Source: Paracoccaceae bacterium (GTDB lineage: Bacteria > Pseudomonadota > Alphaproteobacteria > Rhodobacterales > Rhodobacteraceae). From it: a DNA stretch of 64,000 nt. The stretch covers positions 372,001 to 436,000 of the forward strand of contig JAAFAB010000002.1 in the NCBI GenBank assembly GCA_018222585.1, read 5' to 3'. This document shows, piece after piece, positions 19,172 to 31,489 of this stretch; positions within the stretch are counted from its first letter, which is position 1; every line of letters starts with the position of its first letter. The notes below the pieces were generated by a model, which did no database searches, was not told the DNA's origin, and saw only the letters and a list, made by a program, of their open reading frames with translations. The position numbers and the translations under genes are program-made.

Positions 19172-20086
19172 TCAGTTTGCAAAGAGGGACTTGCGCAGGG
19201 GCGCGGGCAACAGCGGGGCCAGCAGCGCACCGCCCAGGGTCAGCGCGCCGCGGCGGCGGTCGGAGAACCAGCCGAAGGGACTGGAGCCGAGGCCGCGCAG
19301 CGCCAGGCCGAGCGCCTGGCGGCGCGGGGCGCCGGTGCGCAGGGCGCGGCGGGTGAGGTAACGCAGGTGGATCGCCTCGTCCCGGCGCGTGGGGCGATGG
19401 TTGTAGCGGGCGGCGGTGACCAGCGCCGCCAGGCGTCCGGCAGCCATGGCGGGCAGATCGGCCGAGAGGCCGGTGACCGAGGTGCGGTAGTAGACCAGCA
19501 CCTCGTCCAGCCCGGCCAGCCGGTGCCCTTCTCCGACGAGGCGGATCAGGAATTCGAGGTCCTCGTTGTGCAGGATACGCGGATCGAGCCCGCCGAGCAG
19601 GACGAAGGCATCGCTGCGCACCGCGAGGTTGGACATGGTGCAGACCGGGTTCTCTCCCAGCAGGTCGCAGATGGACATGTCACCCGGCCGGATCCGGCTG
19701 AGGCTGCGCGGGCCGGTCTCGTCGAAGAAGGCGACCCGGGCGTAGCAGGCGGCCAGTGTCGGGTCGGCGAAGGCGGCGTCGAGCCGGGCCAGTTTCTGCG
19801 GCATCCAGATGTCATCGGCATCGCAGAAGGCGATCACGTCACCCGCGGCTTCGGCAAGGGCCATGTTGCGGGCCTCGGACGGCCCCTTGCCGCGGTTGCG
19901 CATCGGGCGGACGCGCGGATCGCGGGCGGCATAGCCTTCGGCGATGCGGCGGCTCGTGTCGGTCGAACCGTCGTCGATCACCAGCGCCTCCCAGTCCTGC
20001 AGACCCTGGGCCAGCAGGCTGTCGAGGGTCTCGGCCAGGGTGGCGGCGGCGTTGTAGCAGGGAATGACGATACTGAAGCGGGGCAT
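19172..20086 (-). CDS. Glycosyltransferase family 2 (GT-A fold)
   Basis: A 304-aa GT2 enzyme. Its opening, FSIVIPCYNAAATLAETLDSL (residues 4-24), is nearly the same as that of the next gene. IDDGSTDTS lies near 37-45 and the DxD-type motif FCDADD near 88-93. The first base of its ATG is shared with the end of the Wzx-like gene at 20086, so the two are coupled. It is part of the minus operon that also includes the flippase. It probably adds one sugar of the exopolysaccharide repeat. The sugar is not predictable. Confidence 0.92.
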   Translation of the reverse strand: MPRFSIVIPCYNAAATLAETLDSLLAQGLQDWEALVIDDGSTDTSRRIAEGYAARDPRVRPMRNRGKGPSEARNMALAEAAGDVIAFCDADDIWMPQKLARLDAAFADPTLAACYARVAFFDETGPRSLSRIRPGDMSICDLLGENPVCTMSNLAVRSDAFVLLGGLDPRILHNEDLEFLIRLVGEGHRLAGLDEVLVYYRTSVTGLSADLPAMAAGRLAALVTAARYNHRPTRRDEAIHLRYLTRRALRTGAPRRQALGLALRGLGSSPFGWFSDRRRGALTLGGALLAPLLPAPLRKSLFAN

Positions 20087-21327
20087 CAGGCAAGCTCCAT
20101 CCGGCGCGGGGCGAAGGCGGCAGGGCCAACGGTGGGCAGGGCGGCGCCCAGCTGGGTGACGATCGAGACGACGAGGTAGCCGGTGGCGATGGCGGTCAGG
20201 CCGTAGGGGGCCAGCAGGGCGGTGTTGGCCATCAGCGCGAAGGTCATCATGGCCGTGGCGAGGAATTCCGTCTGGGGCCGCTCATGGGCGCGCAGCCACT
20301 GGGCGGCGGCGGACCAGATGACCCCGGGGATCGCAGCAAGGCACAGGATCGAGACGACGTGGTCGATGCCCGTCCAGCCGTTGCCGAAGAGGATCGGCAC
20401 GTAGTAGGGCGCGGCCAGGGCCTGCAGCAGCACCACCGGCACGATGATCGCGACCGAGAGCTGCAGCGAGCGGCGCAGCGCGGCGGGGCGGTCGGGGGCG
20501 GTCACCAGGTGCGGGAACAGCACGGTCGAAAAGGCCTGGCTGAACGAGGTGGCGAGGCCGAGGCCGGCGTTGAAGGCCATGAAGTAGAGGCCCAGCACCT
20601 CGGTTCCCAGCATGGCCCCGATGATCAGCTTGTCGGCCTGCAGGCGCAGCGCCTTGACCACCTCGACCCCGAGGACCGCCCAGCCGTAGGACAGGAAGGG
20701 GCGCAGCGGCGCCGGGGCGACGGAGCGGTCGACGCTCCAGGGATGCAGGCGGCGCATGGCGATCAGCCAGAGCGGTGCCGCCAGCAGGCGGGGCAGGATC
20801 AGGGCCATCGGGCCGGGGAAGACCAGCGCCAGCACGGCGGAAGTGACATTGGCCGCGACCACCTGGCCGCCGGCGATGGCGGCGGTTTCCTTCATCTTGC
20901 CGGCGCGCATGGCCAGGGCGCATTGCACCAGCCCGCCTGGCATGAAGAGGTATTCGCCCGCCAGCACGGCGATCAGGGCAAAGATCATGGTGTCGCCGGT
21001 CATCGCCCAGATCGCGGCTCCGGCGGCGACCTGCAGGGTGAACAGGCCGAGGCACCAGGCCCAGAAGATGCGATGCGCCGTGCGGGTGGTCGCCGCCAGA
21101 TCGTCCTCGCGCGCCGCGATGATGCGCTGGCCGACGCCGTTCTCGGTCAGCGCCTTGACGATATCGGCCGAGGCCATGGCGGCGGCGGCAAGGCCGATCG
21201 CTCCGGCATCCATGGTCCGGGCCACGGCGACGACGACCAGCAGACGCGAGCCCTTGGCCGCTGCCTCGGAGAGGCAGTAGGCAAGAAGATGCGCGGCGAA
21301 GCTGCCAGGGCGGATGGCGCGAAACAT
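20086..21327 (-). CDS. Polysaccharide flippase, Wzx-like (MOP superfamily)
   Basis: A 413-aa integral membrane protein with about 12 hydrophobic segments and the polysaccharide-synthesis pattern (for example LLAAPLWLIAM and LGTEVLGLYFMAFNAGLGLATSFSQAF, where LGxYxxA-like features are typical of Wzx/RfbX). It should flip the lipid-linked repeat unit across the inner membrane. The start ATG at 21327 gives MFRAIRPG; a longer reading to 21420 runs through the promoter region and is rejected. It is the first gene of the minus operon. The upstream region to 21546 is shared with the divergent Wza-like gene and holds the first CCTATCC-N4-GGATAGG-type palindrome. Confidence 0.88.
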   Translation of the reverse strand: MFRAIRPGSFAAHLLAYCLSEAAAKGSRLLVVVAVARTMDAGAIGLAAAAMASADIVKALTENGVGQRIIAAREDDLAATTRTAHRIFWAWCLGLFTLQVAAGAAIWAMTGDTMIFALIAVLAGEYLFMPGGLVQCALAMRAGKMKETAAIAGGQVVAANVTSAVLALVFPGPMALILPRLLAAPLWLIAMRRLHPWSVDRSVAPAPLRPFLSYGWAVLGVEVVKALRLQADKLIIGAMLGTEVLGLYFMAFNAGLGLATSFSQAFSTVLFPHLVTAPDRPAALRRSLQLSVAIIVPVVLLQALAAPYYVPILFGNGWTGIDHVVSILCLAAIPGVIWSAAAQWLRAHERPQTEFLATAMMTFALMANTALLAPYGLTAIATGYLVVSIVTQLGAALPTVGPAAFAPRRMELA

Positions 21328-21431
21328 GGACTGTGTCCTTGGTGCAAGGCGGTGATGCCCCTGAATACCGCCGCGCCGGTCGCGCTGTCCCTTACGCCGA
21401 GGAAGAGGATAGGGGGGCATGGGGCGAACAG

Positions 21432-21451
21432 CCCTACCCTTTTGGATAGGG
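21432..21451. promoter_or_regulatory. Shared palindrome of the polysaccharide locus, copy A
   Basis: CCCTACCC-TTTT-GGATAGGG, seven of eight arm positions paired. It lies between the divergent Wzx-like (start 21327) and Wza-like (start 21547) genes. An extra GGATAGGG half-site lies at 21407-21414. Copies B, C and D are at 26065, 27696 and 28509. Confidence 0.65.
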
Positions 21452-21546
21452 GAGCCACCGGCGGGGCGCTGGACGGGGGATTCCCGCCCGGTATAGGGTT
21501 AAGGCAAAGCCGCCCGACCAAGCCACGAGCAGATCCGGACCAAACA

Positions 21547-22797
21547 GTGACCTTTCCCAGCCGCTCTCTCCTGCCCCGCCGCGCGCGCCTGTCCCCGGGC
21601 GCCTCCCTGGCGCTGCTGCTGGCCGCCTGTTCGGCGCCGCCCGAGGCGGCCAATATCGAGCCGGTGGCCGAAGGCACGGCCTACCAGGCCCAGTATCGCG
21701 CCTTTCAGGTGTCGCGCGCCGAGACGGCGGTGCTGCGGGCGCCGGCGATGAATGCCGCGCGCTGCCTGCCGCCTGCGGGGGATCTGGGCGAGCCGGGCTC
21801 GAAGGTCGGCGCGGCTCTGCCGCTGGCGCTGGAGGGCGAGTTGCTGAGCCGTGGCGACCTGGTGCAACTGCGGCTGCCCGAGGATGCAACCTTCAGCGGC
21901 GACTACGTGATTTCCCGCGATGGCACTCTGAAACTGCCCTACCTGGCGCCGGTCCAGGCGCAGGGGCGCAGCACCGACCAGGTGGCGCGAGAGATCCGCG
22001 CGGCGCTGGTGGCTGGCGATTTCTACGGCGCCCAACCGCAGCTTTCGTTGCTGCTGATGGACATGGCGCCGGTCCGGGTGGCCGTGCGCGGCGCGGTCTT
22101 CGAACCGCACGCGGTGGATATCGGCGGCGTGCCGGGGGACGCGGTCGACAGCCGTCGCCAGGCCGCGCTCGGCGCCTCGACCGAGGCCCGCAACCTCTCG
22201 GTGGCGCTGCGCGGCGCAGGCGGGGTGCGGCCCGATGCCGATCTCTCGGCGGTCAGAGTGACCCGGGCGGGGGTGAACTACACCCTGGACATGCGTGGCA
22301 TCGTCGAGGGCCGGGATGCCCCCGACGTGGTGCTGGTGACGGGGGACGAGGTCTTCGTGCCCTCCCGGCGATGCTTCCAGGACGCGCTGATGACCCCCAG
22401 CCCGATTTCACCGCCGGGAATTTCGCTCTACCTGTCGAACCTGACGCAACCGGCCACCGGCAATGCCCCCTCGGCCATTGGCCAGACGGTGCGGGAACTG
22501 CCCTACGGGGCGCGCTACATGCAGGCGGTGGTGGATGCCAACTGCGTCGGCGGGGCCCGCGCTTCCAGCGCCGCGCGTTCAGCGGCACTGTTCACCCGCA
22601 ATCCGATGACCGGCGTCTCGGCGGTGATCGAGCGCCCGGTCGAGGAGATGCGCCGGCGCGCGGACCGGGACGATTACGACCCCTATCTGCTGCCGGGCGA
22701 TGCCATCGCCTGCTATGACAGCGGGGTCACCAACCTGGCCGAGGTCGGCCGGGTGCTGGGAGTGATCGGCGCGGTGGCGGTGCTGGGCAGCGACTGA
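21547..22797 (+). CDS. Polysaccharide export lipoprotein (Wza/GfcE-like)
   Basis: A 416-aa outer-membrane polysaccharide export protein. The N-terminal signal ends in a lipobox LLAAC (Cys about residue 29), so it should be lipidated. A Poly_export domain follows at about 100-165 (GDLVQLRLPEDATFSGDYVISRDGTLKLPYL), then SLBB-type beta-grasp regions (MAPVRVAVRGAVFEPHAV; DVVLVTGDEVFVPSRRC). The C-terminal 130 residues are unlike E. coli Wza. The start is a GTG at 21547 that gives a normal lipoprotein signal; no strong ribosome site is seen. The gene is alone on the plus strand, divergent from the Wzx operon across palindrome A and convergent with the kinase at 22863. It would form the outer-membrane channel for the exopolysaccharide. 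Confidence 0.88.
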   Translation: MTFPSRSLLPRRARLSPGASLALLLAACSAPPEAANIEPVAEGTAYQAQYRAFQVSRAETAVLRAPAMNAARCLPPAGDLGEPGSKVGAALPLALEGELLSRGDLVQLRLPEDATFSGDYVISRDGTLKLPYLAPVQAQGRSTDQVAREIRAALVAGDFYGAQPQLSLLLMDMAPVRVAVRGAVFEPHAVDIGGVPGDAVDSRRQAALGASTEARNLSVALRGAGGVRPDADLSAVRVTRAGVNYTLDMRGIVEGRDAPDVVLVTGDEVFVPSRRCFQDALMTPSPISPPGISLYLSNLTQPATGNAPSAIGQTVRELPYGARYMQAVVDANCVGGARASSAARSAALFTRNPMTGVSAVIERPVEEMRRRADRDDYDPYLLPGDAIACYDSGVTNLAEVGRVLGVIGAVAVLGSD

Positions 22798-22862
22798 GCC
22801 GACCCGGAGGCAGGCCCTGCGCCGCCGCGTCCCCTCAGGCCCCGTCTCACAGGCCCCGTGCT

Positions 22863-25454
22863 TCAGGCGAGGGCGAGGCGCTTGTCGATGGCGCGCAGCT
22901 GGTCGAGACTGTCGCGCCACAGCGGTTCCAGCGCCGAGAGCTCTTCCTGGGTGACTTGCTGGCTGCGCTTGATCTTGGTTTCGATATCGGCAAGCGCCCG
23001 GCGCAGGGCGATCAGCCCGAAGGTGCCGCAGGTGCCGGCGCAGGCATGGGCGAGGCGGGCGATCTCCGCCCGGTCGCCGGGCCCCGAGACCAACGCGGCG
23101 ATACAGCCGTCGGTGTCGGCGGTGAAACGTTCCAGCAGCTTGCGCCCGGTCTGGACGCCGGTGCCGGCCAGCAGGGTCTCGATCTGGTCTCGGTCGATCA
23201 GCGGCGCGGCCACGTCGGCATCCTCGGCGGGTAAACCTGGCCCGGAAAGGCGTCCGGCGGCGATGTCCTCGAGGCAACTGGCGAGCACCTTGCGGTCGAT
23301 GGGCTTGGCCAGGGTGCGCAACATGCCGACGGCGCGGAAACGCTCGATTTCCTCGGGCAGGGCATGGGCGGTCAGCGCCACGATCGGCACATCCGCAGAC
23401 GCCCCGTTGCCGGCACGGATGCGGCAGGCGGCCTCGGCACCATCCATGACCGGCATGGAGATATCCATCAGGATCACGTCGAAACGCTGGGCATTGGCCC
23501 ATTCGACCCCGGCCTGTCCGTCGACGGCCTCGGTTACCTGGTGGCCCTCGCTTTCCAGCATCTCGCGGGCGATGAAACGGTTGATCTCGTTGTCCTCGAC
23601 CAGCAGCACTTCCATCGGCATCACGGCGGCGGGACGGCTTTCGGCCTCGCTCGTCTGCTCCGCTGCAGCGGCTTCCGATACGGGAATGCGCACCCAGAAC
23701 AGGCTGCCGTCCCCCGGCTCGCTCTCGGCGCCGATCTCGGCGTCCAGAACGTCGACCAGGCGACGCACGATCCCCAGGCCGAGACCGGTGCCGCCAGCCT
23801 GGCGGGCGTAGGAGCTGTCCAGGGTCTCGAAGTCGTTGAAGATCCGTTTCAGATCCTTCTCTTCGATGCCGATACCGCTGTCGATCACCCGGAACTCGAT
23901 CTGGTTGTGGTCGCTGCCCAGCATCTCGACCTCGATCTCGACGCCGCCGCCGCGGGTGAACTTGGCGGCATTGCTGACGAGGTTGAGCAGGATCTGCCGG
24001 ATCTTGCGGGAATCGCCGTTCAGCCGGTCGCTGGCAGGGCCGACCCAGGACCAGTTCAGATCGTTGCCGTTGCTGGCGGCCAGGGTCGCCGTGGTCTCGA
24101 CCACGCCGTCCATCAGCCGCGAGACCGAGAAGGGCCGGGTTTCGGCCTGCATCTTGCCGGCTTCGAACTTGGCCAGGTCCAGCACGTCGTTGACCAGTCC
24201 CAGCAGGTGATGGCCCGAGCCCTGCATCAGGTCCAGCAGTTCGCTCTGGGTCTCGTTCAGGTCATGGTCGCGCAGCAGCTGCATCGAGCCGAGGAGCCCG
24301 TTCAGCGGGGTGCGCATCTCGTGGCTCATCACCGCGAGGAATTCCGACTTCGCCCGCTCGCCGGCCAGGGCGCGGTCGCGGGCCTGGGTGATCATCTCTT
24401 CCTGGGCCTTGCGCAGCGAGATGTCGCGGATGAAGGAGACGTAGAGGTGTTCATCGTCGGCGGCGCGGTCGAAGGAAATTTCGGCCGGGAAGCGGCGCCC
24501 GAAGCGATCGACGGCGATCACTTCGTGCGGATGCAGAACCCGGTCGCCGCGCTTGCGTGCCTTCAGGACCTTATGCACCACGCGCTGCAGTTCGTTGGCC
24601 TGGTCGTCGCTGAGCAGGAGGTCGTTGATCCGGCGGCCAATGGCCTCGTCGCGACGATAGCCGAAAATGCGTTCGGCGGCGGTGTTGTAATCCCGGATGA
24701 CGCCGAGGTCGTCGGTCACCACGATGGCGTCCAGCGAGGTTTCGACGATGGTATGCATCCGCTTGGCCCGGCCCTCGGCCTGCTCGGCGTGCTCGCGTGC
24801 CTCGCGGGTGAGGCGCATCAGCACCAGGGCGATCAGCGACAGGCCGGCGATGAAGGCGAAGAGCACCGCCGCGATCAGGCTGAGCTTGCGGATCAGGCTG
24901 GCTTCGTTGGCGTCGGCGACGCGCACGAAGGCATCGAGGGCGGCCAGGGAGAAGGCGCGCACGGCGCCGCCGGTGACCGCCGCGTCGGCCTCGATCTGCG
25001 GCAGGGCGGCGGCAAGCGCGGCATCATCGGAGTCGATCAGCGGGATGGTGCGGTCGAGAAAGTCCGTCACCTCGGCCCGGGCGCGGGTCAGCGCCTGCTC
25101 GCGCTCGATCGAGTCGAACGGTTCGGCGAAATCCACGGTCTGCATACGGCTGTAGAAGACATCGAAACGCAGCCGCGTTTCCCGCAGGGTGCGCCGAAGG
25201 TCTTCCGGCGGGACCTCGGCGTCGATGGCGTCCTGTGCCGCCTCCAGTTGCAGGCGGAAGTTCAGGAACTCGACGTCGGCCTGAGACAGGCTCCATTGCA
25301 GGCCGTCGGCCTTCGAGGAGGTCAGCCGCTCGATCTCGAAGAGAACCGTCCACGCGGTTCCCGCCACCAGCGCCACGCAGAGCCCCAGCGTGATGATCGC
25401 CGCGATCGGCCTTTGCCAGAGTGCGGCGCCAGAAGATTTCAGGCTCGGGCTCAT
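22863..25454 (-). CDS. Membrane hybrid sensor histidine kinase (PAS-HisKA-HATPase-REC-HPt)
   Basis: An 863-aa phosphorelay kinase. Two membrane helices (about 17-37 and 192-214) bracket a ~150-residue helical periplasmic domain. Then come PAS (about 230-345), HisKA with His378 in MSHEMRTPLNG, HATPase_c with N-box NLVSNAAKF (491-499) and G-boxes DSGIGI and GGTGLGLGI, a receiver with Asp664 in LMDISMP, and a C-terminal HPt with His803 in LAHACAG. The HPt motif differs from the usual AHxLKG, but its His is kept. It lies 29 bp after the small molybdopterin-fold gene at 25484, probably as one operon. The response regulator at 27844 lacks a kinase of its own and is the likely output. It probably controls the surrounding polysaccharide genes. 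Confidence 0.92.
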   Translation of the reverse strand: MSPSLKSSGAALWQRPIAAIITLGLCVALVAGTAWTVLFEIERLTSSKADGLQWSLSQADVEFLNFRLQLEAAQDAIDAEVPPEDLRRTLRETRLRFDVFYSRMQTVDFAEPFDSIEREQALTRARAEVTDFLDRTIPLIDSDDAALAAALPQIEADAAVTGGAVRAFSLAALDAFVRVADANEASLIRKLSLIAAVLFAFIAGLSLIALVLMRLTREAREHAEQAEGRAKRMHTIVETSLDAIVVTDDLGVIRDYNTAAERIFGYRRDEAIGRRINDLLLSDDQANELQRVVHKVLKARKRGDRVLHPHEVIAVDRFGRRFPAEISFDRAADDEHLYVSFIRDISLRKAQEEMITQARDRALAGERAKSEFLAVMSHEMRTPLNGLLGSMQLLRDHDLNETQSELLDLMQGSGHHLLGLVNDVLDLAKFEAGKMQAETRPFSVSRLMDGVVETTATLAASNGNDLNWSWVGPASDRLNGDSRKIRQILLNLVSNAAKFTRGGGVEIEVEMLGSDHNQIEFRVIDSGIGIEEKDLKRIFNDFETLDSSYARQAGGTGLGLGIVRRLVDVLDAEIGAESEPGDGSLFWVRIPVSEAAAAEQTSEAESRPAAVMPMEVLLVEDNEINRFIAREMLESEGHQVTEAVDGQAGVEWANAQRFDVILMDISMPVMDGAEAACRIRAGNGASADVPIVALTAHALPEEIERFRAVGMLRTLAKPIDRKVLASCLEDIAAGRLSGPGLPAEDADVAAPLIDRDQIETLLAGTGVQTGRKLLERFTADTDGCIAALVSGPGDRAEIARLAHACAGTCGTFGLIALRRALADIETKIKRSQQVTQEELSALEPLWRDSLDQLRAIDKRLALA

Positions 25455-25483
25455 GCGTTGTCCCTATTGCAGAGGCCCGGCGA

Positions 25484-25993
25484 TCAGTCGATGACGCGCA
25501 GGCGGTCCAGTTGCCACACACTTCTAGAATGAATCACGTCGGTGCGATAGGCCGCTGACACGTCATAGGGGTAAACGATCCAGAGCGGGCCCTTTTCGCG
25601 GACCGACATCGTCTCTCCGTGGTTGCGATAGGCGAGGATCGGATAGTCCGCGTTCCAGCCGTCACGGGGAATGGTCACCGCGTAGTCGTTGATGGCGGTA
25701 AGGTCGAGGGCCTTGGCGTCCGGTGCGACAGCCTCGACCAGGGCCGACAGCGGTACGCCGGTGAATTCCTGCATCCCGTCGGTCCAGTTGGTCGAGGTGT
25801 CGATCTCGGCGACCGGCAGGGCCTCCAGGTCTTCCAGGGTGAATTCGGCCAGCACGGTTCCCTCGTCGTTGAGAACCGTCAGCAGGATCGGCTCGTCGGA
25901 CTGGGCCAACACGGGCAGGGCAGGTGCGGCAAGGCTGCCGGCAACGAGGACGGATGCGGCGAGGCGCCGCGCAAGGCGAGGCAGAGCAAACAT
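25484..25993 (-). CDS. Small periplasmic protein with molybdopterin-oxidoreductase-type fold
   Basis: A 169-aa secreted protein. The signal peptide ends in LPVLA before QSDE (near residue 31). The mature part resembles the sulfite-oxidase/YedY molybdopterin-binding fold in reduced form: FTLEDLEALPVAEIDT, EFTGVPLSALVEAV, INDYAVTIPRDGW, GPLWIVYPYD. No cysteine is present in the mature sequence, so the usual Mo ligand is missing and catalysis is doubtful. It lies 29 bp upstream of the hybrid kinase, which suggests that it works as a periplasmic sensor subunit. The ATG at 25993 has an AAGGA ribosome site 8 bases upstream; a longer reading to 26026 or 26053 is less likely. Palindrome B lies 72 bp upstream. 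The fold call is by pattern only. Confidence 0.75.
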   Translation of the reverse strand: MFALPRLARRLAASVLVAGSLAAPALPVLAQSDEPILLTVLNDEGTVLAEFTLEDLEALPVAEIDTSTNWTDGMQEFTGVPLSALVEAVAPDAKALDLTAINDYAVTIPRDGWNADYPILAYRNHGETMSVREKGPLWIVYPYDVSAAYRTDVIHSRSVWQLDRLRVID

Positions 25994-26064
25994 GGTGCGA
26001 ATCCTTTTTGCCCGGGAGTGTCGCATGAAACCGTAGAGTCTCCGCCGGGGCATCCGAAGACCTT

Positions 26065-26084
26065 ACCTATCCGAATGGGTAGGT
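26065..26084. promoter_or_regulatory. Shared palindrome of the polysaccharide locus, copy B
   Basis: ACCTATCC-GAAT-GGGTAGGT, seven of eight arm positions paired. It lies upstream of the molybdopterin-fold gene and its hybrid kinase. It has the same 8-4-8 layout as copy A. Confidence 0.65.
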
Positions 26085-26138
26085 TGGGTGATTTTCCCAA
26101 GACGTATCATTTACCATGCCCGGGAATGGGGCGCGGTT

Positions 26139-27530
26139 TCAATAGGCGCCTCGCCCTCCGATGACGGCGCGGGCGGTAAGAGCCAGCAGCAGTGCATCCA
26201 GCAGGACCGAACGGGACCGTACGTAGGCCAGGTCCATGTCGATCATCTTGTCGAAGCCGATCTCGGCGCGGCCCGAAACCTGCCACAGCCCGGTCAGTCC
26301 CGGCCTGACCTGCAGCCGGCCAAGCGCGCGCTCGGGGTAGGCCGCGACCTCCTGGGGCAGGGCGGGGCGGGGGCCGACCACGGACATGTCTCCTTTCAGC
26401 ACGTTCAGGATCTGCGGCAGTTCGTCGACCGACAGCCGTCGCAGGATGCGACCGACCCGGGTGATGCGGGGATCGCTCTTCGACTTGAAGCAGAGGCCGT
26501 CGCGGTCGGAACTGTGCAGCAGCGCCGCCCGGCGTGCCTCGGCGTCGCGGTACATCGAGCGGAACTTGTACATGGTGAAGGGCTTACCATCCAGGCCGAC
26601 GCGGGTCTGGCGGAACAGTACAGGGCCGCCGCTCTCCAGGCGCACCGCCAGCGCGGCGGCCAGCAGCACCGGCGCCAGAAGCAGCAGCGCGACAGAGGAG
26701 ATCGCCAGGTCGAAGGCGCGGCGCGCGGCCTCTCCGGTAGGACGCTCGGCACGGGCATCACGGCGCGCGCGCAGGAGGAACTCGGCATTGCCGATGAGGT
26801 AGCGGCGGGCCATGCGGCGCGGCTCCATCGCCAGCCGCCAGGCCCATTCGGCGCGGGCCTTGCGCACCAGCGCAGGTGCGCGCCGGACCCGGCCGGCCAG
26901 GAAGTCGAACAGGGCGCCGACACCCATCGTCAGGCGCGGCGACAGGCGCGCGGCGTTCTGCGCCAGCCAGCTGTCCTGGCGCGGCACGCCGAGGGCGACC
27001 AGCAGGATGTCGGCGCCGGAGGCATTGATCTGGGTGATCGCCTCGGCCTCGTTGCGCATCCCGCCATAGCCGTCGCGGGTGCCGGCGATCTTCAGACCGG
27101 GGATGTCGCGCTGCAACCGCAGGGCGGCGCCCTCGGCCACGCCGGGCTGACCGCCCAGCAGGAAGACCGACAGGCCCTGCCGGGCCGCCGCGGCCAGCAG
27201 GCGCGGGCAGAAGTCGGTTCCGTTCAGGTTCTCGGCAAAGCTCCGGTTGCGCATCCGGGCGGCAAGCTCGACGCCGATGCCGTCGGGCAGGATCATGTCG
27301 GCGGTCACCAGGGCATCGCGGTAGCGCGCGTCCCGGGCGGCGACATTGCCGCAATGGGCGTTGAGGAAGGCCAGCCGGCTGCGGCGCCCGGGCAGCAGCA
27401 GCCGCTCGATCACGGCCTCGGCGGGGGCGTCGACGATGTCCAGGCCGAAGAGGCGAAGGCGGGGCAGGACCGGCAGGGCCGGAACCGGACGGGTATCGTG
27501 CAGGAAGGCAAGCTGGGTCGTGGCGATCAT
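26139..27530 (-). CDS. Fusion of WecG/TagA/CpsF glycosyltransferase (GT26) with initiating sugar-phosphate transferase
   Basis: A 463-aa protein with two enzymes in one chain. Residues about 25-230 are GT26 (LNAHCGNVAARD; ADMILPDGIGVELAAR with the probable catalytic Asp83; VFLLGGQPG; LLVALGVPRQD). Residues about 270-460 are a polyprenyl-phosphate sugar-1-phosphate transferase of the ExoY/WbaP core type. That part has one membrane hairpin (278-296), then FRQTRVGLDGKPFTMYKFRSM, DELPQILNVLKGDMSVVGPRPALP and RPGLTGLWQVSGR. The second half would put the first sugar phosphate on undecaprenyl phosphate, and the first half would add the second sugar. The ATG at 27530 was chosen because the reading frame upstream to 27698 crosses the promoter region. 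It ends 54 bp before palindrome B. Confidence 0.92.
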   Translation of the reverse strand: MIATTQLAFLHDTRPVPALPVLPRLRLFGLDIVDAPAEAVIERLLLPGRRSRLAFLNAHCGNVAARDARYRDALVTADMILPDGIGVELAARMRNRSFAENLNGTDFCPRLLAAAARQGLSVFLLGGQPGVAEGAALRLQRDIPGLKIAGTRDGYGGMRNEAEAITQINASGADILLVALGVPRQDSWLAQNAARLSPRLTMGVGALFDFLAGRVRRAPALVRKARAEWAWRLAMEPRRMARRYLIGNAEFLLRARRDARAERPTGEAARRAFDLAISSVALLLLAPVLLAAALAVRLESGGPVLFRQTRVGLDGKPFTMYKFRSMYRDAEARRAALLHSSDRDGLCFKSKSDPRITRVGRILRRLSVDELPQILNVLKGDMSVVGPRPALPQEVAAYPERALGRLQVRPGLTGLWQVSGRAEIGFDKMIDMDLAYVRSRSVLLDALLLALTARAVIGGRGAY

Positions 27531-27695
27531 GGCGGGCATCCGAGGTTGCGTGGTGTCGCTTTCAGATGCCGGTATGGGGCCGCCTCGCTCAATTGCGCGG
27601 CAGGCGAGGCGGCGGGGACTTTGGAGGAGTGCACCTTCTGGTTGTGGGTGCGGGACACTTCTCGCGGGATAGCCCTTGATCCCGGGGGAGGGGGG

Positions 27696-27715
27696 CACTA
27701 TCCCTTAGAATAGAC
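27696..27715. promoter_or_regulatory. Shared palindrome of the polysaccharide locus, copy C
   Basis: CACTATCC-CTTA-GAATAGAC. The weakest copy: CTAT/ATAG and the inner C/G are paired. It lies upstream of both the fusion gene and the response regulator, with the same 8-4-8 layout as the other copies. Confidence 0.5.
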
Positions 27716-27741
27716 ACCATTCTTCTTTTGAGTTCCCCGAT

Positions 27742-27779
27742 TTGGTCACATTCTTGGTGTCTTGTTAACCAGTGACCAA
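27742..27779. promoter_or_regulatory. Inverted repeat with nested repeat upstream of the response regulator
   Basis: Perfect 8-bp arms TTGGTCAC (27742-27749) and GTGACCAA (27772-27779) are 22 bp apart. A TTGGTGTC direct copy starts 12 bp after the first arm and pairs with AACCA. It is a candidate binding site for an autoregulating dimer, 65-100 bp upstream of the regulator start. Confidence 0.5.
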
Positions 27780-27843
27780 CAGCTTGATTCGAAGTGACGG
27801 GAATTGAATAGTGATTACGGCTAGCCCCCTGCAGGAGACTTCT

Positions 27844-28482
27844 GTGCGTAATATGGCTTCTGGCGGCATGAGGGTTCTCATCGCGGATGATCATGATCTT
27901 CTGCGCGATACCCTTCAGGCTTTCCTGAATGCAGAGGGTGGTTTCGAGACCGTCACCGTCGCCTCCTTCGACGAGGCGGTCGAGCGGGTGGAACGGGACG
28001 CGGACTACGATCTGGTACTTCTCGACTACTCGATGCCCGGCATGTCCGGCATCGAAGGGCTGCAACGCATGATGGAGCAGACCGGCCACAAGCGCGTCGC
28101 CATCATCTCGGGCACCGCCAGCCGCGAGATCGCCGAAGAGGCCCTGGCCCTGGGGGCCGCCGGCTTCCTGCCCAAGACCCTTTCGGCCAAGTCGCTGATC
28201 AACGCCGTCCGCTTCATGGCCATGGGCGAGCAGTATGCGCCGCTGGAGTTCATGCGCGCCGCGGCCGATGACGCCTCGAACCCGCTGGCCGACAAGCTGT
28301 CGCACCGCGAGTTGCAGGTGCTTGAGGGGCTGACGCAGGGCAAGTCCAACAAGGAAATCGCCCGCGATCTGGATATCCGCGAGCCGACGGTGAAGCTGCA
28401 CGTCAAGACGCTCTACCGTAAGATCAACGCGTCGAACCGGACCCAGGCGGCGATGATCGCCAAGGAAGCCGGGCTGTTCTGA
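27844..28482 (+). CDS. LuxR/NarL-type response regulator
   Basis: A 212-aa two-domain regulator. The receiver domain (9-125) has the acidic pair in IADDHD, the phospho-acceptor Asp61 in LLDYSMPG, Thr91 in ISGTAS and Lys111 in LPKTL. The LuxR-type HTH (150-208) includes LSHRELQVLEGLTQGKSNKEIA and EPTVKLHVKTLYRKI. The start GTG at 27844 is set by an AGGAGAC ribosome site 6-7 bases upstream. A GTG at 27811 would make that site coding. The gene sits in the middle of the polysaccharide locus and is probably phosphorylated by the hybrid kinase at 22863 through its HPt domain. NarL-type proteins bind short inverted repeats, so the four palindromes A-D and the 27742 repeat are natural candidate targets. 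Confidence 0.92.
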   Translation: MRNMASGGMRVLIADDHDLLRDTLQAFLNAEGGFETVTVASFDEAVERVERDADYDLVLLDYSMPGMSGIEGLQRMMEQTGHKRVAIISGTASREIAEEALALGAAGFLPKTLSAKSLINAVRFMAMGEQYAPLEFMRAAADDASNPLADKLSHRELQVLEGLTQGKSNKEIARDLDIREPTVKLHVKTLYRKINASNRTQAAMIAKEAGLF

Positions 28483-28508
28483 TCTTCCCCGGGGCGCGCA
28501 GCCCCGGT

Positions 28509-28528
28509 CCCTATCCCACCGTATAGGA
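28509..28528. promoter_or_regulatory. Shared palindrome of the polysaccharide locus, copy D
   Basis: CCCTATCC-CACC-GTATAGGA. CCTAT/ATAGG and the inner C/G are paired. It lies 88 bp upstream of the Wzz-like gene and 26 bp after the response-regulator stop. Confidence 0.6.
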
Positions 28529-28616: not shown

Positions 28617-30146
28617 ATGCCCCCTGCCTCGAACGACGACCAGACCCCGCGAAGCGAGATCCTGCGCGAAGCCCCGAGGGGCCGTCGCCGCCTGTTGCCC
28701 CGCCTGATGCGCAAACCGCTCGGTGCGCTGACCGCGATGCGCATCCTGCGCGGCGGGCGGGTGGCGGACGCGGGACGCTTGCCGCGTTACCTCGGCCTGT
28801 TCCTGCTGGGCGCCGGGGCGATCTGGGCGCCGATCCTGACCTATCTCGACACCGCGCCGCTGCGCTACACCTCCTCCATGTCGCTGATCCTGCCCGGCTC
28901 GGGCGCCTCGGCCTCGGTCAACCTGGCGCAGATCGGCCAGGCGTCCTCCTTCGCCAGTTCGCCCTTCAGCGGCGGGTCCGTCAGCCCGACCGAAACCTAC
29001 AAGCGCCTGCTGGCCGCCGAGCGCATCGTCGACGGCGCCGCCCGCAGCATGGAGATGGAGCTGCGCGCCTTCGGGCAGCCCCGGGTCGAGCTGGTCGACC
29101 AGACCGGCCTCATCCATATCTCGCTGACCGGCAATTCGCCCGAGGATGCCCGCGCCCGTGGGCAGGCCCTGCTGGCCGCCTTCTTCGCCGAGATCGACAA
29201 GCTGCGCTCGGACGAGATCGCCACCCGTGAGTTGGGCACCGGATCGGCCATCGCGGAATACCGCGCCTCGGTCATGGCCACCCGGGACGAGATCACCCGC
29301 CTGCAGACCGAAACCGGCCTGCTGTCGCCCGATCAGTACCAGGCGCTGATCTCGGAAACCGACGAGCTGGCGCGCAACGTGCGCGATCTTGCCGCCAAGC
29401 TGGACGAGAGCCGCCGGGCGGTGCAGACCTTGGCCCAGTCGCTGGGCACCACGCCGCGCCTTGCCGCCGCCGCGCTGCGCCTGCACGCGGACACCGAATT
29501 CGCCGCCCTCAACGAAGAGATGTCCCTGCGCGCCGCCGATCTGGCCCACGCGCGGGCCCGCTACGGCGCCGCCCACCCGACCCTGTCGGGCGCCATGGCC
29601 GGCCATGACAGCGCCCGCAGCGAGGCGCTGAACCGCGCCATCCGCCTGACCGGTCTGACCGTGCCGGAGATCGAGGCGCTGGACATGTCCCACACCGGCG
29701 CCCGCACCGGGCTGCTGAGCGAGCTGGTCACGCTGGACAGCGCCCGCGCCGGGCTGGAGGCCGAGCACGCCGCGCTGGCGCAGCGCCTTGCCGAGGCCGA
29801 GGCCCGCCGCCTGGCGCTGATCGGACCGGCGGCGCGGCTGGAGGATCTGCAACGCGACTTCTCGGTCGCCGAGGCGGTCTTTGCCTCGGCCATGGCGCGG
29901 ACCCAGACCAGCAAGGCCGACCTCTATGCCTCCTATCCGCTGGTGCAGGTGCTGGAAGATCCCTCCTACCCGATGGAACCCTCTTCGCCGCGCCGCAAGC
30001 TGGCGCTGGCGGCCGGGATCGCGGCGACCTTCATGTTCCTCCTGGGCCTCTCGCTGGGCTGGCTGCGCCGGCCGCTGATCGACCGGCTGATCGACAGCGG
30101 CAAGAACCGCTATGGCGAACCCGGCCTGACCGTGGCGGCGGAATGA
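28617..30146 (+). CDS. Polysaccharide chain-length determinant, Wzz/GumC-like
   Basis: A 509-aa inner-membrane protein. One membrane helix lies near 58-78 and another near 462-482, flanking a large periplasmic region. That region has long coiled-coil stretches (about 195-300 and 350-440), including ALRLHADTEFAALNEEMSLRAADLAHARARYG. This is the PCP/Wzz layout. There is no C-terminal Walker-type tyrosine kinase, so it is a PCP-2-type protein without its kinase half. An AAGGAG ribosome site precedes the ATG at 28617 by 7 bases. It overlaps the following polymerase gene by ATGA. It would set chain length and help couple polymerisation to the Wza-like channel. Palindrome D is in its promoter region. 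Confidence 0.88.
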   Translation: MPPASNDDQTPRSEILREAPRGRRRLLPRLMRKPLGALTAMRILRGGRVADAGRLPRYLGLFLLGAGAIWAPILTYLDTAPLRYTSSMSLILPGSGASASVNLAQIGQASSFASSPFSGGSVSPTETYKRLLAAERIVDGAARSMEMELRAFGQPRVELVDQTGLIHISLTGNSPEDARARGQALLAAFFAEIDKLRSDEIATRELGTGSAIAEYRASVMATRDEITRLQTETGLLSPDQYQALISETDELARNVRDLAAKLDESRRAVQTLAQSLGTTPRLAAAALRLHADTEFAALNEEMSLRAADLAHARARYGAAHPTLSGAMAGHDSARSEALNRAIRLTGLTVPEIEALDMSHTGARTGLLSELVTLDSARAGLEAEHAALAQRLAEAEARRLALIGPAARLEDLQRDFSVAEAVFASAMARTQTSKADLYASYPLVQVLEDPSYPMEPSSPRRKLALAAGIAATFMFLLGLSLGWLRRPLIDRLIDSGKNRYGEPGLTVAAE

Positions 30147-31489
30147 GCGCGCCCGCCCCCCGCCTCGCCCCGGCGAACCCGGCCGAGCGGATGGTCTGGG
30201 TCGCCCTGCGCTGGACATGGCCGTTCTACTTCCTCGGCGCGCTCTACGTGATCGGGCCGGTGCTGGCCTGGCTGCTGGCGGGGCTGGCGGCCTTCTGCCT
30301 CTACCTCGGTCCGGTGATGCGCCCCGAGATGCGCCCGCGCGGCGCCATCCCGCCCGTCGTCTGGGCCTGGATGCTGGGCATGTGCGTCATGCTGATAGCC
30401 CTCTGGGTCGGTCACCTGAACTGGGGCCTCGGCACCGGCAAGACCATCAAGAGCTCGATCGGCTGGGCCAAGGGCTGGGCGTTGCTGGCGCTTTTCCCGC
30501 TGGCCGGCGCGGTGCTGCCGATCCGGCGAGAGATCCTGATCCGCGCGCAATGCATCGTTGGCCTCTGGACACTGGCGCTGCTGCCGATCCTGATCGCCGC
30601 GCCCTACGTGGGCCTGCCGGAACGCATCTTCACCTCTCCGCTGAAAGCCATTGGCGGGCCGGGCCCGGAGTACTTCAGCGTCTTCTTCTTCACCTGGGAT
30701 CCGGCCAGCTGGACGCCGCGCTGGCAGTTCTATGCCCCCTGGTCGCCCTTCGCGGCGCTGCTCGGGGTGCTTCAGGTCTGCTTCGCGCTGGAGGAAAAGG
30801 ACCGCCGCTGGAAGTCCATCGGCATCGCGGCGGGCGTGGCGATGATCCTGCTGTCGAAGTCGCGCATGGGGATCGTCGGGCTGGTGGCCTGCACCCTCGG
30901 GCCGCGCCTGTTGCCGCTGGTGCTGCGGGGCTGGGCCTGGATGATGCTGGCCGCGCTGACCGCCTCGCTGGCGGTGCTGGGCAGCTGGCTGCTGCAGGGG
31001 CTGAAGGACGGCGTGGCCGCCTTCAAGGGCGCCCGCGCCGACAGCACCCGGGTGCGCGAGACCCTGCAGCGGATCGCCGGGGAACGCTGGCAGAACGAGG
31101 CCTACTGGTTCGGCCATGGCACCGTCGCCCCGGGGCCGCACCTGGTGGAGTACATGCCGATCGGCTCGCATCACACCTGGTGGGGGCTGCTCTTCGTCAA
31201 GGGCCTGGTCGGGATGCTGGCGCTGCTGGTACCGCTGGTCTGGCACACGCTGATCGTGCTGGTCGACGCGGCACGCCACCCGCGCGGGCGGCTGCCGCTC
31301 TCGGTGATCATGACCATCGTGCTGCTGTCCTTCGGCGAGAACCTGGAAATCGAAGCCTACATGCTCTGGCCCGGGCTGCTGATCCTCGGCGCCCATGCGC
31401 AGGACGTGGCGCAGGACTCCCGCAAAGGGCTCAGTCGGGCAACACACGGCCCCGCCCAAGCATCCCCGCCGGATCCAGTGCCTGCTTGA
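30143..31489 (+). CDS. O-antigen ligase/polymerase-like membrane protein (Wzy/WaaL type)
   Basis: A 448-aa membrane protein with about ten hydrophobic helices. It has a large periplasmic loop around 300-350 containing RETLQRIAGERWQNEAYWFGHGTVAPGPHLVEYMPIGSHHTW. That loop, with its GHG and SHHT motifs, is the usual sign of Wzy/WaaL enzymes. It would polymerise repeat units, or ligate the finished chain to an acceptor, in the periplasm. Its ATG overlaps the Wzz-like stop. Its last 59 bases overlap the convergent FAD-oxidase gene (31431-31489), so both C-termini are encoded on opposite strands of the same DNA. Polymerase versus ligase cannot be told apart by sequence alone. Confidence 0.82.
   Translation: MSAPAPRLAPANPAERMVWVALRWTWPFYFLGALYVIGPVLAWLLAGLAAFCLYLGPVMRPEMRPRGAIPPVVWAWMLGMCVMLIALWVGHLNWGLGTGKTIKSSIGWAKGWALLALFPLAGAVLPIRREILIRAQCIVGLWTLALLPILIAAPYVGLPERIFTSPLKAIGGPGPEYFSVFFFTWDPASWTPRWQFYAPWSPFAALLGVLQVCFALEEKDRRWKSIGIAAGVAMILLSKSRMGIVGLVACTLGPRLLPLVLRGWAWMMLAALTASLAVLGSWLLQGLKDGVAAFKGARADSTRVRETLQRIAGERWQNEAYWFGHGTVAPGPHLVEYMPIGSHHTWWGLLFVKGLVGMLALLVPLVWHTLIVLVDAARHPRGRLPLSVIMTIVLLSFGENLEIEAYMLWPGLLILGAHAQDVAQDSRKGLSRATHGPAQASPPDPVPA

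Follow-up and report, generated by a model that had tools for sequence, protein, structure and literature searches.

A conserved inverted repeat as the probable operator of a NarL-type regulator in PruR-linked exopolysaccharide loci of Rhodobacteraceae

The exopolysaccharide locus of a Paracoccaceae bacterium, contained in a window of 64,000 nucleotides (assembly GCA_018222585.1, contig JAAFAB010000002.1, positions 372,001 to 436,000), carries four copies of a short inverted repeat, CCTATCC-N4-GGATAGG, here termed S1 to S4 (Table 1). The repeat is probably the operator of the NarL/FixJ-type response regulator encoded at 27844, which would be the output of a PruR-DTB phosphorelay and would control its own gene, the exopolysaccharide genes and a small envelope regulon. 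The repeat occurs far above the level expected by chance, and the conservation of operator and regulon, their co-occurrence with the regulator, the identity of the PruR homologue by sequence and predicted fold, and the WX7E motif of its partner kinase were all established computationally.

Sites were scored against an 18 bp consensus of the form 7-4-7. An earlier note on this DNA had described four copies of an 8-4-8 repeat in gene-free regions; the copies are real, lie where it placed them and have the four-base centre, but they were described too neatly. None of the four is perfect (mismatches 1, 1, 3 and 1), and the outer, eighth letters read C/G, A/T, C/C and C/A and therefore pair in the first two copies only. 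All four do lie between coding regions, given the probable true starts of the adjoining genes (wzx ~21328, wza 21547, pruR 25993 and the glycosyltransferase (GT) fusion gene 27530), with distances from site to start codon of 73-167 bp across the window promoters, and an extra half-site, GGATAGG, is found near S1 at 21407. Under a dinucleotide Markov model three copies with at most one mismatch are seen in the window against none in 60 simulated windows and are highly significant, whereas three-mismatch copies are seen three times against 1.7 expected per window, so that S3 at 27697 is not significant alone.

The whole genome of 5.15 Mb has three perfect sites and five with one mismatch, against none for the reversed pattern at the same limit; random occurrence elsewhere in the genome, which the earlier note would have counted as a refutation, is not what is seen. 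Allowing two mismatches raises the number to 17, and that of the reversed pattern to 6; eight of the nine two-mismatch sites lie inside predicted genes. On a reading of the gene map all eight strong sites (at most one mismatch) are placed between genes; that of L018 falls within a longest open reading frame (ORF) call, the DedA-type part of which starts downstream of the site. Three of the eight are the window sites at the exopolysaccharide locus; the others mark a DUF6153-YcnI/PCuAC-Sco1 run, flanked by CoxG on the opposite side, a DedA-DsbB pair, an ORF of 379 residues that follows glnA, and a tandem pair of small membrane proteins. The predicted regulon thus extends beyond the exopolysaccharide locus, and the same outlying promoters recur in relatives. 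Genome-wide, 21 of the 22 sites in five named relatives lie either there or at the regulator/exopolysaccharide locus (8/8 in Oceanicola sp. S124, 6/6 in Pseudooceanicola antarcticus, 3/3 in P. marinus, 2/3 in Pseudooceanicola sp. HF7 and 2/2 in P. spongiae). By identity of the regulator the nearest named relatives are S124 (97%) and P. antarcticus (92%), so that the window probably comes from that group. Across 18 orthologous pairs the site letters are 94.8% identical against 58.2% for the flanks, a comparison biased by the pairs having been chosen for possession of a site. The outlying sites of four more distant genomes (L258-L264) have no common target on a reading of their ORFs.

The tandem small proteins are a duplicate of a probable membrane protein of 41-52 residues, on contig C54 of the window's genome (8664-8822 and 9317-9475 of L017, minus strand), and each copy has an operator ~114 bp upstream of its longest ORF start; in S124 the protein is present in three copies, dispersed and again with operators. 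The 379-residue ORF beside glnA (7218-8357 of L019, minus strand) has no NCBIfam match. Its operator, ~300 bp upstream, is shared by P. marinus, P. antarcticus and S124, and the gap between operator and ORF may hold a hidden small gene or RNA.

The repeat recurs around orthologues of the regulator, matches to which at E<=1e-30 are present in 101 of 198 genomes of the family, that of the window included. Two sets of loci were used, the first extending up to 9.5 kb to each side of 60 listed regulator matches, mostly the best-scoring, and the second consisting of 80 named loci, at least eight of which overlap the first set. A de novo count of palindromes in the 60 loci (exact 6 bp inverted repeats with spacers of 0-10) found CTATCC-N4-GGATAG to be the richest in copies, with 31 exact copies in 19 loci and none in three shuffles. 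Another palindrome, CATGCC-N1-GGCATG, present in more loci than any other (21, with one copy in each), was set aside; by sequence reading it is probably coding sequence of the receiver domain (SMPGM). At up to one mismatch the 60 loci have 56 sites, where 37 permuted palindromes average 0.08. A site is present in 27 of the loci at that limit and in 38 at up to two mismatches, whilst in the named set 64 of the 80 loci have a site, for a total of 130 sites.

Many of these sites fall into four classes of position relative to the regulator, which match the arrangement in the window: between wzx and wza at about -5.8 to -7.5 kb, at pruR and the kinase gene at -1.1 to -2.8 kb, at the regulator and GT fusion mostly at -76 to -341 bp, and at wzz mostly +4 to +57 bp past the regulator stop. 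Counted at up to two mismatches in the 45 named loci with exopolysaccharide genes, all four classes are occupied in 14 loci, three in 20, two in 7, one in 3 and none in 1, with S1 filled in 33, S2 in 43, S3 in 23 and S4 in 34; no class was occupied in the shuffled controls (one shuffle per locus). Three or four positions are thus kept in 34 of the 45 loci, and the conservation at orthologous promoters that the earlier note had asked for is found. S3 is supported by its position, because the 23 loci counted for it have a copy 40-350 bp upstream of the regulator, and P. antarcticus retains the variant S3 copy with two mismatches. One 10 kb stretch (L257) has the wzx, wza, wzz and GT fusion genes but no regulator, PruR or kinase match, the regulator matches fetched from its genome being on two other contigs. 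It nevertheless has sites ahead of wzz and in the wza-wzx interval, as would be expected of control in trans.

Possession of the site also follows possession of the regulator. Among the 198 genomes a site is found in 60 of 82 that have the regulator (E<=1e-55) and in 25 of 116 that do not (p 3e-13). When two genomes with matches at 2.1e-55 and 8.8e-55 are counted as having it, the genomes with a site are 62 of 84 against 23 of 114 and the mean number of sites per genome is 1.64 against 0.25. The reversed pattern occurs 44 times in the 198 genomes (0.22 per genome) with no association with the regulator (p 0.71), and genomes lacking the regulator are therefore near background. The proposal of a single regulator for the whole locus, with the 27844 protein as the candidate, is well supported by these comparisons, namely the recurrent positions, the co-occurrence, and sites at the regulator's own promoter in the stand-alone modules described below.

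In many more distant relatives the regulator lies not with polysaccharide genes but beside a pruR gene and a kinase gene in the opposite orientation. Both PruR and the kinase are matched in 41 of the 60 first-set loci, 25 of which are adjacent divergent stand-alone units, and 15 of the 60 have at least three of the four exopolysaccharide genes; some of the kinase matches, at no more than 22-24% identity, may belong to other kinases. In the named set sites occur in 60 of the 66 loci where both kinase and PruR are matched and in 4 of the other 14, some of the contigs being short. Of the 25 stand-alone units, 9 have a site (up to two mismatches) in the interval from pruR to the regulator, against 0.02 in shuffles. 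A further 60 genomes, 55 of them with a readable recognition helix, were scanned with an upstream-region pattern in which positions 6 and 13 were free and up to two mismatches allowed; a site lies upstream of the regulator in 24 of the 55, against 0.3 in shuffles.

The two genes that the earlier note called a molybdopterin-fold protein plus kinase lie ~30 bp apart on the same strand in a two-gene operon arrangement. By sequence and modelled fold the first product is a PruR homologue, predicted to bind a pterin, and the kinase is of the PruR-DTB type. Public annotation has these pruR genes as "molybdopterin-dependent oxidoreductase". The predicted structure (mean pLDDT, predicted local distance difference test, of 85) has as its best match in a fold search PruR of Agrobacterium (7kos, E 4.7e-12), with matches also to the Klebsiella protein with neopterin (7rkb) and to that of Vibrio, whilst sulfite dehydrogenase is far weaker (best 2.5e-5). 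A profile built from 38 orthologues matches the solved PruR chains with E down to 3.3e-51. No cysteine follows residue 35 in any of 66 orthologues, the secretion signal was judged by eye from the N-terminus, and N102, Y104 and W160 are invariant in 38 of 38 orthologues and correspond in the alignment to the NDY and SRSxW stretches of the solved chains. Y104 and W160 have been linked to pterin binding and N102 suggested for specificity (PMC13259868). The WX7E motif of the kinase is at residue 54, its W present in 64 and its E in 58 of 64 aligned kinases, and the best NCBIfam match is TorS (E 3.6e-115, 386 bits, under the equivalog cut-off of 676.5). Features of PruR-DTB systems found here are a PruR-type protein of about 170 residues with a SUOX-like fold, a secretion signal, no Mo-ligand cysteine and the pterin-linked residues, in an operon with a WX7E kinase that has a TorS/BaeS-like kinase domain.

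The 27844 protein has the receiver domain and GerE helix-turn-helix of the NarL/FixJ family, and its PDB matches include NarL and further full-length members; its predicted phospho-acceptor, D61, was assigned by position, and no NCBIfam equivalog reached its cut-off among the matches listed (25 of 102 families).

Other arrangements of the module are also found. Two exopolysaccharide loci (L138 of G185 and L120 of G004) have the regulator beside a 23-24%-identical kinase with no PruR match, and still have an operator after the regulator, which is possibly a case of sensor swap. In Salipiger bermudensis (G088) one regulator copy (L089/L152) has no PruR, kinase or operator nearby, and a second copy has all four operator positions filled.

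At 49 pruR-kinase promoters a third half-site, CTATCC, lies 3 bp after the palindrome in 21 cases with up to one mismatch and at 4 bp in six more, other offsets having 0-3; the S2 copy of the window has no clear third half-site. A -10-like consensus, TGGCAnA, follows ~40-46 bp after the palindrome in these promoters, which puts the palindrome centre ~60 bp before the inferred start. This is the place typical of activators, and so the geometry suggests activation and, at pruR-kinase promoters, positive feedback. A CtrA-like motif, TTAA-N7-TTAA, was seen at up to one mismatch in 22 of 137 regulator-upstream regions, where shuffles average 11.1 and reach 17 at most. This weak signal was not used, and the motif is absent from the window at 27566-27865.

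We infer binding by the 27844 regulator, the phosphorelay, its ligand and the direction of control, in the following manner. The periplasmic PruR-type protein (25484-25993), the membrane hybrid kinase (22863-25454) and the regulator would form a three-gene module, in which PruR with its ligand bound would act on the periplasmic WX7E region of the kinase; the pairing of a PruR-type protein with a PruR-DTB-type kinase is what suggests the signal. Phosphate would then pass from HisKA to REC to Hpt and on to D61 of the regulator, and the phosphorylated dimer would sit on the two inverted 7 bp half-sites, four bases apart. Its targets would be wzx, wza, wzz and the sugar-transferase fusion, joined in Pseudooceanicola by the outlying DedA-DsbB, DUF6153-YcnI/PCuAC-Sco1 and small membrane protein genes and the protein gene beside glnA.

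Several observations weigh against this interpretation. No site at up to one mismatch is found in 33 of the 60 first-set loci, mostly the more distant ones, nor in four genomes that have a close regulator (G039, G089, G123 and G190), and the regulator copies L089 and L152 (75% identical) have none at up to two mismatches in their fetched flanks. Kinship in the 198-genome test was corrected only to about one genome per genus, and the promoter geometry comes from a consensus with inferred start sites. Covariation between recognition helix and operator, a post hoc hint (p 0.009), was discarded when it went unconfirmed in a pre-declared repeat on new data (3/12 against 11/36 arms, p 1.0, the first group having 12 arms only), and regulator and operator are therefore linked by co-occurrence and position only. 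This leaves room for a genuine operator that serves some other DNA-binding protein, such as a second NarL-type regulator, whose part would be no more than co-regulation of the module; binding of the operator by the 27844 protein is after all our inference, and related regulators are many, with 58 first-look candidates in this genome. It would nonetheless seem unlikely, as a genome without the regulator has on average 0.25 sites, much as for the reversed pattern (0.22), and as sites stand at the regulator's own promoter in stand-alone modules, in whose three-gene unit no other regulator is seen. Somewhat less unlikely, though still doubtful, is that the 27844 regulator does bind the operator and acts by repression, or with either sign according to the promoter. 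The site-to-start-codon distances vary in the window, the start sites are inferred and S4 lies close to the end of the regulator gene, all of which would fit; at pruR-kinase promoters, however, the palindrome lies ahead of the core promoter and the third half-site is on its promoter side.

The repeat could also be read as an RNA hairpin acting as terminator or attenuator, having a 7 bp stem, a 4-base loop and, in S4, a place after a stop codon. This is highly improbable and largely refuted: in 98 one-mismatch sites the mismatches are uncompensated, pairing is kept in only 5 of 69 two-mismatch sites, T-runs are near only 17 of 238 sites, and sites are also found between divergent genes. Hardly credible is an origin by chance or from a small mobile repeat. 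In its favour it can be said that the two-mismatch matches of the genome are near background and mostly inside predicted genes and that S3 does not reach significance by itself; the permuted and reversed controls, the conserved positions and the greater identity of site letters than flanks (in pairs picked for having a site) refute it in the main. The operator of the 27844 regulator remains the reading we prefer.

Table 1. Repeat copies and genes of the locus, in window coordinates
Feature	Coordinates	Strand	Basis or placement
Candidate operator copy S1	21433..21450	n/a	between wzx (minus) and wza (plus); 1 mismatch
Candidate operator copy S2	26066..26083	n/a	73 bp ahead of minus-strand pruR start; 1 mismatch
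Weak candidate operator copy S3	27697..27714	n/a	between GT fusion gene (minus) and regulator gene (plus); 3 mismatches
Candidate operator copy S4	28510..28527	n/a	28 bp past regulator stop, 90 bp ahead of wzz start; 1 mismatch
NarL/FixJ-type response regulator, proposed binder	27844..28482	+	Response_reg and GerE domains (Pfam)
PruR-type periplasmic protein, predicted pterin-binding, 169 residues	25484..25993	-	fold search and profile search
Hybrid histidine kinase, PruR-DTB kind (WX7E, PAS, HisKA, HATPase, REC, Hpt)	22863..25454	-	domain search, WX7E
WecG/TagA-type glycosyltransferase fused to bacterial sugar transferase (GT fusion)	26139..27530	-	Pfam
wzx-type flippase	20086..21328	-	Polysacc_synt_3
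wza-type export lipoprotein	21547..22797	+	Poly_export
wzz-like chain-length protein	28617..30146	+	no Pfam match; weak NCBIfam chain-length match far under cut-off
Gene overlapping wzz	30143..31489	+	position only; no Pfam or NCBIfam match

In Sulfitobacter faviae the gene at the position equivalent to the one that overlaps wzz is annotated as an O-antigen ligase domain protein. The S. faviae locus (L265), together with PruR, kinase and regulator, is on plasmid unnamed02, typed as mobilizable, and its pruR copy has the same oxidoreductase annotation as the others.

Inverted half-sites four bases apart are also found in the ComA box of Bacillus subtilis, TTGCGG-N4-CCGCAA, again recognised by a GerE-type response regulator, whereas the half-site sequence, organism, signal and targets differ. 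Pairs of PruR and kinase of the sort found here have been termed PruR-DTB systems, with that of Ruegeria pomeroyi DSS-3 as the example in Figure 5 of a recent review (PMC13259868). The likeness consists in a PruR-type protein that lacks the Mo-ligand cysteine and shares an operon with a WX7E TorS-like kinase; the difference is that the review, in the main text of which the term "response regulator" does not appear, names no response regulator, operator or targets in the portions available, whereas the present proposal has a NarL-type regulator, encoded divergently, together with its operator and regulon. In the PruR-DcpA-PruA system of Agrobacterium tumefaciens PruR is likewise a periplasmic pterin sensor with surface polysaccharide as an output, but that system acts through turnover of cyclic di-GMP (c-di-GMP) by DcpA, whereas here the partner is a histidine kinase and direct control of genes is proposed (PMC13259868). 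CenKR of Rhodobacter sphaeroides, from the same family, is also a two-component control of cell-envelope genes, but has an OmpR-type regulator and a TGA-N8-TGA direct repeat (PMC9275681). Membership of the CenR regulon was considered and rejected, the motif here being an inverted repeat of another sequence and the regulator GerE-type. Neither the motif nor a response regulator linked to PruR came up in the literature searched, which left most subscription papers and the primary PruR-DTB paper outside it.

PruR-DTB kinases are reported to be widespread, and the review (PMC13259868), as far as its available text goes, assigns them neither a downstream regulator nor target genes. It seems reasonably likely that the module described here is the missing transcriptional output of Rhodobacteraceae PruR-DTB systems, in which pterin sensing by PruR would pass through a phosphorelay to a NarL-type regulator and so to direct control of exopolysaccharide export and the envelope, and not through c-di-GMP. 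With an operator, a cognate regulator and a short list of targets, that output would become measurable by a simple promoter reporter in culturable marine bacteria, for which surface attachment and slime matter, and searches of whole genomes for the operator could bring out targets in the further genera that have the module.

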